Positions 43,571 through 46,569 of a stretch of 64,000 nucleotides of DNA are shown piece after piece. This DNA is from Roseomonas mucosa (GTDB taxonomy: Bacteria; Pseudomonadota; Alphaproteobacteria; Acetobacterales; Acetobacteraceae). Where the stretch lies: positions 1 to 64,000 of the forward strand of contig CAMDWG010000011.1 of NCBI GenBank assembly GCA_945878375.1. The letters run 5' to 3'. The position numbers and the translations under genes were made by a program. The notes under the pieces are model-generated. The model saw only the letters and a list, made by a program, of their open reading frames with translations. It was not told the DNA's origin and did not search any database. Numbering within the stretch: the first letter of the stretch is position 1; each line of letters begins with the position of its first letter.

Positions 43571-43678
43571 CGTTCTGACTGGGGATGACTTGCCCGGGAC
43601 TCGCAACCCACCCGGTTATGCTGGCGTTCGCTGCCCCAGGGTGCCGTCCGGCGCCCACCATGCCAGGGAGCGCACGCT

Positions 43679-45628
43679 ATGTCCGGAAGCAGCACCACCC
43701 CGATTCTCGATGTCGAAAACCTGCTCGGCCCCAACCGGCTCGGCGATACCGAGACCGATCGGCTGAACCAGGCTTTGAACGACCTGGCGCAGGCCCTCGA
43801 CGAGGCCGATGAGCCGCTGGATGACCTCGTCGCGGCGCTGGAACAGGCGGTGGAGGATGTCGGCCTTGCCTTCGACCAGCTCCGTGAGGATCTGGTCGCC
43901 GCGGCCGATGAGGCCGAGGACGCGGTGCAGGAGGTGCTCGACAACATCGAGGACGCGCTGGCCGATGGAGGTAACGGCAACGGCAACGGCGACGGCAACG
44001 GCGACGGTAACGGCGATGGCAACGGCGATGGCAACGGCGATGGCGCCGCGGCCCAGACCGCCTTCGCACTGCTGCTGCCGGCGAATAATTCCGGCGCGCT
44101 CGGTTTCGCGGCTCTGCGGCTTGATGGCAACACGCTGGATGTCAGCTTCGTCGCCGACAATGTGACGCTGGGCGAGCCGCACCCGCTGCACATCCACGGC
44201 TTCACCGATGGCGGCACGGGGCGCCTGGCGGTGGCCGCCGACGATGCCGATGGCGACGGCTTCGTGGAAACCGCGGAAGGCGCCGCGGCGGCCTTCGGGC
44301 CGATCATCGCCTCGCTCACCGCGTCGGGCGATGTCGATCCGGCGCTTGGCGCCTCCGGCGATTTCGACGTGGCGGAGGAAGATGGGCGCATCGTCTTCAG
44401 CCGCAGCTACACGCTCGATCCCACCGATCCCGAGGACCAGGATGTTCTGACGGCGCTGCAGGCGCAGTTCGACGGCCGCATCATCAAGCTGCACGGGCTG
44501 GAGGTCGCGGAGGGTGCGGGCGAGGGCACGCCCGGCGAAGTGAACGGAGAGGGCGGCTACGCCGCGCTGCTGCCGGTTGCCGCGGGTCCGCTGCTGTCCT
44601 TGCCAGATGAGGTCGTCGCGCAATTCGCCGACGACCCCGAGACGCTGCTGGACGGGATCACCGCCTTCCTCGACGCCGTCGCGCCCTTCACCCTGAAGAC
44701 CGATGGCAGCGGCGCCATCGCGCCCGACCCGTTCCTGGCGGATGGCGCCAATGGCGACGGCACCAATGGCGACGGCACCAATGGCGACGGCACCAATGGT
44801 GACGGCACGAACGGTGACGGCACGAACGGCGACGACGCGAATGGCGACGACGCGAACGGCGACGACGCGAATGGCGACGACGCGAATGGCGACGACGCGA
44901 ATGGCGACAACGGCACCGACGACAACGGCACGGACGGGCAGGCGGATGGCGCGCGGAGCTTCGCCACGCTGATCCTGCCGGCGAACAACTCCGGCGTCTT
45001 CGGCGCCGCCAGCATCACCTTCGACGAAGCAGCCGGCACGGTGGCCATCGACCTCGACCTGGCGGGGCTGGAGCCGGGCGAGGCGCATGCGATGCATATC
45101 CACGGCTTCACCGACGACCGCGCCTCGCTGCTGCCGAACATCACCCTCGATGCCGATCTCGACGGCTTCGTGGAGGCGTCGGAGGGCGCGTCCGTGATCG
45201 GGCAGGTGCTGCTCGGCCTGACCGGGGATGGCAGCATCACCGATGCGTCGCTGATCGGCGACTGGCCGGAGGCGGATGAGAACGGCTTCCTCAGCCTGCA
45301 GCAGACCTACAGCTTCGACCTGGATGATGCCGCGGAGGCCGCGCTGTTCGGCGAATTGCAGGACCGCATGGAAGGCCGCCTGATCCAGGTGCAGGGCCTG
45401 AGCGTGGATGCGACCCAGGGCGTGGGCACCAGGGGCGAGGTGGCGGGCGAGGCCGGATTCCAGCCGCTGCTGGCCGTCGCCCATGGCGCGATCCTGTCCA
45501 CGGATACCGAGGGCGGCGCCTTCGCGGCCGAATTCGGCGCGCTGCTGCAAGCCGCGCTCGACGCGCAGGCGGCGGAAGCCGGTGCGGCCCCCGTGACGCC
45601 GCCGCTGCAGGATGCGCTGATCGCCTGA
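43679..45628 (+). CDS. Acidic repeat protein with two CHRD/SOD-like domains and EF-hand-type loops
   Basis: A 649-residue very acidic protein with no signal peptide or membrane helix. Residues 25-95 look like a coiled coil. Two related domains (about 127-302 and 428-602) each contain LPANNSG, a HxxHIHGFTD motif (HPLHIHGF at 168-175, HAMHIHGF at 470-477) as in CHRD and Cu/Zn-SOD-like folds, and a 12-residue EF-hand-pattern loop (189-200 and 491-502) with Asp at 1, 3, 5, Gly at 6 and Glu at 12. Asn/Gly/Asp linkers (97-122; 358-420) separate them. Function unknown. No GGxGxDxL repeats, so an RTX exoprotein is unlikely; unannotated secretion cannot be excluded. Confidence 0.85.
   Translation: MSGSSTTPILDVENLLGPNRLGDTETDRLNQALNDLAQALDEADEPLDDLVAALEQAVEDVGLAFDQLREDLVAAADEAEDAVQEVLDNIEDALADGGNGNGNGDGNGDGNGDGNGDGNGDGAAAQTAFALLLPANNSGALGFAALRLDGNTLDVSFVADNVTLGEPHPLHIHGFTDGGTGRLAVAADDADGDGFVETAEGAAAAFGPIIASLTASGDVDPALGASGDFDVAEEDGRIVFSRSYTLDPTDPEDQDVLTALQAQFDGRIIKLHGLEVAEGAGEGTPGEVNGEGGYAALLPVAAGPLLSLPDEVVAQFADDPETLLDGITAFLDAVAPFTLKTDGSGAIAPDPFLADGANGDGTNGDGTNGDGTNGDGTNGDGTNGDDANGDDANGDDANGDDANGDDANGDNGTDDNGTDGQADGARSFATLILPANNSGVFGAASITFDEAAGTVAIDLDLAGLEPGEAHAMHIHGFTDDRASLLPNITLDADLDGFVEASEGASVIGQVLLGLTGDGSITDASLIGDWPEADENGFLSLQQTYSFDLDDAAEAALFGELQDRMEGRLIQVQGLSVDATQGVGTRGEVAGEAGFQPLLAVAHGAILSTDTEGGAFAAEFGALLQAALDAQAAEAGAAPVTPPLQDALIA
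43973..44044 (+). repeat. Short tandem repeat coding for the first Asn-Gly-Asp-Gly linker
   Basis: Twelve-base units coding for NGDG (with early NGNG variants) follow one another across residues 99-122. Units differ only at silent positions such as GGC/GGT and GAC/GAT. Such arrays can change length by slippage. Confidence 0.75.
44750..44899 (+). repeat. Ten 15-bp tandem repeats coding for the second linker
   Basis: Ten consecutive 15-base units: five coding NGDGT then five coding NGDDA (residues 358-407). Units are nearly identical (AATGGCGACGGCACC and AACGGCGACGACGCG types), with silent AAT/AAC changes. The switch in unit type mid-array shows two rounds of amplification. Confidence 0.85.
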
Positions 45629-45654
45629 CGCGAAGCAGCGCCGAGGCCAGTGTT

Positions 45655-45683
45655 CCCGCAAGACCGGCCATCGGTCTTGCGGG
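45655..45683. terminator. Bidirectional hairpin terminator
   Basis: CCCGCAAGACCG and CGGTCTTGCGGG form a perfect 12-bp stem around GCCAT. It lies between the convergent stops at 45628 and 45691 and is likely to end both transcripts. Confidence 0.8.
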
Positions 45684-45690
45684 GCGCATC

Positions 45691-46569
45691 TCAGGCCGGG
45701 ATGCGGACGCCGAGGCGGCCGGCGATCTCCTGCACGAATTGCCAGGCGACGCGGCCGGATCGGCCGCCGCGCGTGACGGACCATTCGACCGCGGCGCGGC
45801 GCAGTTCCTCTTCCCCGATCGGCAGGGCGAAGCTCGCGGCGTAGCCCTCGATCATCGCGAAGAAGGTGTCCTGGTCGCAATTGTGGAAGCCGATCCAGAG
45901 CCCGAAGCGATCGGAGAGGGAGACCTTCTCCTCCACCGATTCCTGGCCGTGGATCGCGCCGCGGCTTTCATTCTCGATCATGTCGCGCGGCATCAGGTGG
46001 CGACGGTTGGAGGTCGCGTAGAACAGCACATTGGCCGGCCGCCCCTCGATCCCGCCATCGAGGACGGATTTCAGCGCCTTGTAGTCCGCATCCTCCCGCT
46101 CGAAGGACAGGTCGTCGCAGAACACCAGGCAGCTTCGCGTCTCGCGGCGCAGGATGTTCAGCAGGTCGGGCAGGGTGCGGATGTCTTCCCGATGGATCTC
46201 GATCAGCGCGAGGCTGCCGGGGATCTCGGCATTCGCCTGCGCATGCGCGGCCTTCACCAGGGACGACTTGCCCATCCCCCGCGCGCCCCAGAGCATCGCG
46301 TTGTTGGCGGGCAGGCCGCGGGCGAAGCGCAGCGTGTTGTCCAGCAGGATCTTCTTCTGCTGTTCCACCCCGCGCAGCAGCCCGACGCCGACAGCCGAGA
46401 CCTTCGGCACCGGCGCCAGGCGCGGGGCCGGAAGCGGGTGCCAGACGAAGGCATCGGCGGCGGCCAGGTCGGGCGCGGGCGGGCGGGGCGGCGCCTGGCG
46501 TTCCAGCGCATCGGCGATGCGGAGCAGCACGGGCAGCAGCGGATGCGCGGGGGACGCGGTCTCGGTCAC
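45691..46569 (-). CDS. DUF815 family AAA ATPase
   Basis: A 292-residue P-loop ATPase. Walker A is GARGMGKSS (about 94-102), Walker B lies in CLVFCDDLSF, and ATSNRRHLMPRDM is the sensor/arginine region typical of DUF815. The first 60 residues are Ala/Pro-rich. Function is not established in this family; it is usually found beside yajC in alphaproteobacteria, as here, divergently. Confidence 0.92.
   Translation of the reverse strand: MTETASPAHPLLPVLLRIADALERQAPPRPPAPDLAAADAFVWHPLPAPRLAPVPKVSAVGVGLLRGVEQQKKILLDNTLRFARGLPANNAMLWGARGMGKSSLVKAAHAQANAEIPGSLALIEIHREDIRTLPDLLNILRRETRSCLVFCDDLSFEREDADYKALKSVLDGGIEGRPANVLFYATSNRRHLMPRDMIENESRGAIHGQESVEEKVSLSDRFGLWIGFHNCDQDTFFAMIEGYAASFALPIGEEELRRAAVEWSVTRGGRSGRVAWQFVQEIAGRLGVRIPA

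Follow-up and report, generated by a model that had tools for sequence, protein, structure and literature searches.

The CHRD domains of chordin are described as superoxide dismutase (SOD)-like, they bind glycosaminoglycans, and no metal was seen in the maps (PMC13382577). There are copper-only SODs and CSRP repeat proteins that have no zinc site and retain the disulfide (PMC13017621). For bacterial CHRD-like proteins no clear function had been predicted (PMC5335551), and CHRD with RTX-type genes has already been reported in Trichodesmium (PMC5776111). We analyzed a gene in a 64,000-nucleotide stretch of Roseomonas mucosa DNA (the whole of which we call the window) that encodes a 649-residue protein. 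Judged from its sequence, the protein appears to be an unusual branch of this known fold, with two SOD-shaped domains in which the zinc-holding loop is replaced by a loop of the calcium-binding type. We favour, at about even chances, the reading that it is an extracellular, calcium-stabilised, copper-binding protein with tandem SOD folds.

The two domain stretches (44051-44635 and 44951-45535) are 39% identical and have in common LPANNSG, HxxHIHGFTD and DADxDGFVExxEG. The sequence-only reading had described just such a pair of domains, and the alignment bears this out, with His motifs starting at residues 168 and 470 and DxDxDGxxxxxE loops at residues 189 and 491. The gene, its domains and the putative sites are as follows.

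43679..45628, plus strand: gene of the 649-residue two-domain SOD-fold protein, an open reading frame (ORF) from ATG to TGA, stop included
44051..44605, plus strand: domain 1, CHRD/SOD-like
44180..44197, plus strand: HPLHIH of domain 1, His168/171/173, counterparts of SOD1 H43/H46/H48
44243..44278, plus strand: DADGDGFVETAE, EF-hand-type loop of domain 1, residues 189-200
44492..44494, plus strand: His272 of domain 1, counterpart of SOD1 H120
44951..45517, plus strand: domain 2, CHRD/SOD-like, the one modelled
45086..45103, plus strand: HAMHIH of domain 2, His470/473/475
45149..45184, plus strand: DADLDGFVEASE, EF-hand-type loop of domain 2, residues 491-502
45392..45394, plus strand: Gln572 of domain 2, where 58 of 61 aligned rows have His

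The candidate metal sites take up seven of the eight histidines of the protein. When the whole protein was shuffled 20,000 times, at least two DxDxDGxxxxxE loops arose once and H..H.HGF.D never, and two loops arose in none of 20,000 shuffles of the two domains alone; for a protein of this composition, neither the loops nor the His motifs are at all likely to arise by chance. We take H46, H48 and H120 to be the copper ligands of SOD1. Domain 1 has counterparts of all three (His171, His173 and His272).

The sequence-only reading had supposed that no family combines these features, a claim that did not hold, for we collected 67 distinct such domains from proteins with one domain, with two, or with an RTX fusion. 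Of these, 61 were aligned, leaving out four partial or weak domains (L037, L115, L116, L126) and two near-duplicates (L019, L022). The four His columns have His in 61, 59, 58 and 58 rows, the first, third and fifth loop positions have Asp in 61, 58 and 60, the loop Gly is present in all 61 and the final Glu in 60. Only domain 2 of our protein has Gln in the last of the His columns. Two relatives (L011 and L042) have first domains whose His and Asp ligands have decayed jointly. Because the scan of genome contigs that supplied members used the loop itself as its pattern, loop conservation in that scan was set aside as biased. The search was repeated with a query limited to the C-terminal half, which contains neither loop nor HxxHxH, although loop-bearing members had still gone into the query model. 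It matched 46 places in 29 of 397 genomes of the bacterial family, and 34 domains were found in the retrieved loci, 32 of them with at least 90 upstream residues. HxxHxHG occurs in 30 of these 32, a loose loop (D.[DN].[DN]G.....[ED]) in 31 and the strict form D.D.DG..E..E in 26. By these counts, the loop of predicted calcium type is a conserved feature of the family.

The same counts bear on a somewhat unlikely alternative, namely that the protein is a metal-free SOD-fold scaffold for adhesion or matrix binding, similar to chordin, in which the calcium loop and the acidic linkers merely stiffen a secreted protein. The CHRD domains of chordin, in which no metal was seen, are a precedent; tandem domains joined by long linkers, and the RTX-fused relatives, resemble surface proteins; and Gln572 and the decayed first domains also speak for it. 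The His columns, however, are kept as strictly as the calcium loop, and they are kept in 30 of the 32 domains that were found without using them. What favours the secreted copper/calcium protein over such a scaffold is that the two sites hardly vary and, where they degenerate, do so jointly. A His cluster conserved to this degree suggests a metal site, copper being the likeliest metal. Of the two roles guessed earlier, the adhesive one is possible but less likely, and nothing was found in favour of a storage protein.

The lead to CHRD and Cu/Zn SOD in the sequence-only reading proved right at the level of the fold, in Pfam, in a model of domain 2 and in fold comparisons. The CHRD family (PF07452, cut-off 24.1) matches the whole protein with 38.9 bits; domain 2 alone (22 bits) and two genomic places (22.4 and 22 bits) score below the cut-off, and the matches cover profile positions 13-55, 13-67 or 12-74 of 117. 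Sod_Cu (PF00080) gives 20.2 bits on domain 2, under its cut-off of 28.9, and matches 13 of the 61 members at E <=0.1. Pfam Cu-oxidase_2 also matches weakly across the His motif (15.5 bits, cut-off 20.4). The model of domain 2, built from 61 sequences in place of an earlier 9-sequence model (pLDDT 74.4), and its Foldseek comparison show the SOD-like Greek-key barrel of CHRD, and the fold comparison likewise finds the beta-barrel of Cu/Zn SOD. Chordin 9RD6 was not among the structures listed in these comparisons, which excludes nothing. Searches of solved structures by sequence were rejected as guides: that with the whole protein gave linker and helix matches plus one weak unrelated match, and the best 60 of 232 matches of the family profile were calmodulins or calmodulin fusions, which are drawn by the loop, so fold comparison was used instead. 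The fold and the two conserved sites are what the evidence fixes.

The loops had been said to fit calcium EF-hands. The 12-residue pattern DxDxDGxxxxxE is present at residues 189-200 and 491-502 and the loop type is conserved, but a full EF-hand is not formed, since the model has an exit helix (76-83), only three helical residues ahead of the loop and no second loop, and hence no paired helix-loop-helix. Loops of this kind raise the very improbable alternative of a calcium or metal buffer, in which the loops, together with the acidic linkers and the helix, would take up many cations and the histidines would play a secondary part. The loops are perfect EF-type loops and the linkers very acidic; EF-hand_1 matches 7 of the 61 domains at E <=0.1 and lanmodulin matches one member at a chance-like E of 0.045. 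Against such a buffer, each domain has only one loop and no EF-hand pair, and conservation is as high in the His columns as in the loop.

Profile comparisons place the loop-bearing family between CHRD and SOD, as judged by sequence. It matched SodC (Prob 67, E 5.2e-5, 32 columns) and CHRD (Prob 49, E 1.7e-4), whereas the ordinary CHRD of the same bacteria did not match SodC (Prob 0.4, E 0.15); the SodC alignment had 11 rows, one of which (L143, plus strand) is a wrong-strand translation. HxxHxH, found in the loop-bearing family, is also present in 9 of 10 SodC sequences. Pfam CHRD is common in the same bacterial family (174 of 397 genomes), the own genome not being among them at E 1e-8. The loop was absent from all 29 readable loci among the 30 best-scoring ordinary CHRD loci, which carry AH[FI]H- or GH[FI]H-type motifs and later NxH[TS], and from all 12 longer ordinary CHRD proteins; these 41 were picked by score or length.

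A true bacterial copper-only SOD, active without zinc, is a quite improbable alternative. The SOD fold, the counterparts of the three copper histidines, the lack of a PF00080 match in the own genome and the existence of copper-only SODs and CSRPs elsewhere speak for it. There is, however, no bridging His and no disulfide, the Sod_Cu score is below the cut-off, and three genomes of the same genus (G007, G008, G009) have a regular SodC, one of which, G008, also has a relative of our protein.

The sequence-only reading saw no export signal. By eye there is indeed none at the N-terminus, but export is plausible through a type I-like C-terminus and a PrtD-type gene. A PrtD-type ABC exporter gene is present in the own genome (C1:58041-59666; 669 bits against a cut-off of 510), next to an HlyD gene, and RTX repeats are numerous there. 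AprA-type proteases end in Asp and three hydrophobic residues, the need for this motif being disputed (PMC2642768). We defined the motif as an acidic residue followed solely by hydrophobic or small residues, in strict and relaxed forms. Our protein has such an end by both forms. The strict form occurs in 10 of the 13 own RTX ORFs and in 7 of 10 RTX-bearing family members, vs. 9 of 937 background ORFs (13 in the relaxed form), which are not verified genes. Export by the PrtD-type type I system via the C-terminal Asp-hydrophobic end is probably the route. RTX repeats are present in ten relatives (L027, L028, L029, L031, L033, L034, L041, L045, L055, L169), and other relatives have, by eye, Sec-type signals with PEP-CTERM-like ends (L035, L046, L053) or a lipoprotein-like signal (L051). 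A conserved C-terminal tail of about 25 residues, with N[FY].ATG.W[FYW].. at its end, is common to 15 loop-bearing proteins (L012-L018, L020, L022, L023, L025, L030, L038, L104, L154) and an ordinary CHRD protein (L217), and possibly acts in export or sorting as a transferable unit.

For the secreted copper/calcium protein, we infer calcium binding, copper binding, an export route and a role as follows. Each domain would be a Cu/Zn-SOD/CHRD barrel in which the EF-hand-type loop replaces the zinc loop, binds Ca2+ and stiffens that side of the barrel, and the histidines matching SOD1 H46, H48 and H120 would, most likely, hold one copper per complete domain. Lacking a Sec signal, the protein would leave by type I export and then fold in calcium-rich surroundings; copper would be held outside the cell in a copper-binding or superoxide-reactive role. 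Domain 1 would have the complete site, and domain 2 would be a weak binder or structural.

Several observations weigh against this mechanism. Gln572 breaks the site of domain 2 at the last ligand. The SOD1 counterparts were assigned by profile match and strand order and not from coordinates, and the Foldseek superpositions are loose (best-E match: root-mean-square deviation 8.6, TM 0.44/0.54). No further column of the 61-row alignment has 15 or more His, hence no bridging His or zinc-ligand column, as judged partly against what we take to be the SOD ligands; with no Cys in the 649 residues there can be no intramolecular disulfide. As to export, the exporter gene lies on another contig than the window, the genes of the system identified here are the PrtD-type and HlyD genes, no RTX (GGxGxDxUx) repeat is among the Pfam matches of the protein, and only 3 (strict) or 7 (relaxed) of 12 two-domain proteins, ours included, have the C-terminal motif. 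Finally, the SOD-like domains of chordin were without metal in the published maps (PMC13382577).

The protein is acidic (pI 4.05, 0 Cys, 2 Lys, 8 His) and consists of a helical-looking N-terminus, a Gly/Asn/Asp linker, domain 1, a second linker, domain 2 and a short tail ending in QDALIA. The Asn/Gly/Asp repeats noted earlier in the linkers are encoded by DNA in which units of 12 and 15 bp recur in tandem. A coiled coil had been proposed for the N-terminus; the first 97 or so residues do look like one by eye, while Pfam gives just weak helical matches under the curated cut-offs. The remaining features are as follows.

43665..43670, plus strand: AGGGAG, likely ribosome-binding site from sequence reading, 8 nt 5' of the ATG
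43748..43969, plus strand: acidic N-terminal segment, residues 24-97, probably coiled-coil (by eye; helical Pfam matches below cut-off)
43970..44050, plus strand: first Gly/Asn/Asp linker, residues 98-124
44741..44950, plus strand: second linker of Asn/Gly/Asp repeats, residues 355-424
45611..45625, plus strand: C-terminal end of the protein, from the C-terminus comparison, with AprA-type substrates as precedent (PMC2642768)

By Pfam, a TatA/B-type gene, tatC and serS lie upstream, and a DUF815 ATPase gene (minus strand) and yajC downstream. A 754-residue antisense ORF (43616-45880, minus strand) was judged an artefact, probably a by-product of G+C-rich repeat codons.

A search of the own genome gave this gene and no other. 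The whole protein matched 6 of 59 genomes, the own genome counted. The nearest relative (genome G010, contig L050) is, by computation, a syntenic ortholog: it has the same architecture and is flanked by serS and DUF815, some 2 kb of additional sequence preceding the latter. In the first domain of this ortholog (L050:5386-5976) the HxxHxH motif has lost two His, and the later His and some of the loop ligands are gone as well; its domain 2 retains them. The extra 2 kb (L050:6720-8751) holds no Pfam-matched gene, one short ORF having been tested. In eight other genomes of the genus no protein match was seen at this place; in five of them fewer than 500 nt separate serS from DUF815, and in three serS is beyond the flank examined.

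Members outside the bacterial family exist. The scan of genome contigs gave 43 loci from 407 pattern stretches, in Acetobacteraceae/Roseomonadaceae, other Alphaproteobacteria, one Bacteroidota and one Planctomycetota, and that of viral contigs one locus from 154 stretches; on this viral-collection contig (L055:3920-5200) a loop-bearing domain is followed by RTX repeats. A whole-domain profile matched 19 of 249 family genomes, and of 385 genomes of the class and 398 of the phylum the C-terminal-half query matched none but the own genome, with no more than 12 or 13 candidates scored in each.

In a maximum-likelihood tree, a clade (100/100) unites 22 domains of the two-domain branch with L040, an Azospirillum protein that has a single domain. 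Eleven second domains cluster (100/96), our protein and L004 being sisters (99/92), and ten first domains cluster more weakly (89/52). This clustering suggests that the duplication probably predates the split of Falsiroseomonas, Belnapia, Dankookia and Paracraurococcus; an old duplication is well supported for the second domains and less so for the first. Azospirillum L026 and L006/L024 are separate duplications in the tree. In Azospirillum sp. SYSU D00513 (L026:5842-7419) two near-identical loop-bearing domains in one protein mark a recent duplication.

If calcium indeed takes the place of zinc beside a copper site, this would show one more way in which the SOD barrel can be remodelled outside the cell and would point to a metal-related role for some of the bacterial CHRD-like proteins; the protein would offer a small, cysteine-free, testable model. 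The family also links CHRD to SOD by sequence, because its profile matches SodC and the ordinary CHRD profile does not. A further proposal, which we consider unlikely, is that the protein is the bacterial counterpart of the animal copper-only SOD repeat proteins, that is, a secreted tandem metalloprotein in which extracellular calcium, via the loop, switches on or stabilises the copper site, and which bridges CHRD and Cu/Zn SOD in sequence. We found no paper on a calcium-loop CHRD/SOD subfamily in the open-licence literature.

Among known systems, bacterial and chordin CHRD share with the protein the SOD-like barrel, the N-terminal GxA..LD..LTV..GL, the HIHG strand and a His on a later strand. 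The ordinary CHRD domains of the family differ in their smaller length, in AH[FI]H-type motifs that lack the first His, and in the absence of the loop from all 41 sampled. Cu/Zn SodC has the same fold, HxxHxH and a later His, and a weak profile match, but our protein lacks its bridging His, zinc ligands and Cys, scores below the cut-off and would have a calcium-type loop in place of the zinc loop. The Deinococcus radiodurans Cu/Zn-SOD fused to a beta-propeller lactonase (9m58 in the fold list) is also a bacterial SOD-fold protein with calcium; it was rejected as a precedent because calcium is in the propeller and the SOD domain binds copper and zinc (PMC12362111). With copper-only SODs and CSRPs the protein shares a zinc-less SOD fold, tandem repeats and a predicted extracellular location; those proteins, from fungi and animals (and a mycobacterial copper-only SOD), have a disulfide and an intact copper site, whereas ours has a calcium-type loop and neither Cys nor bridging His (compare PMC13017621). 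EF-hands have the same 12-residue loop, D-x-D-x-D-G-x-[IV]-x-x-x-E, with an exit helix, but here the loops have no proper entering helix, are unpaired and are set in a beta barrel. We do not file the protein as an ordinary CHRD, because coverage of the CHRD profile is partial and both domains carry an inserted loop, nor as a SOD or CSRP, because disulfide and bridging His are absent; we regard it as a calcium-loop variant of the CHRD/SOD fold.
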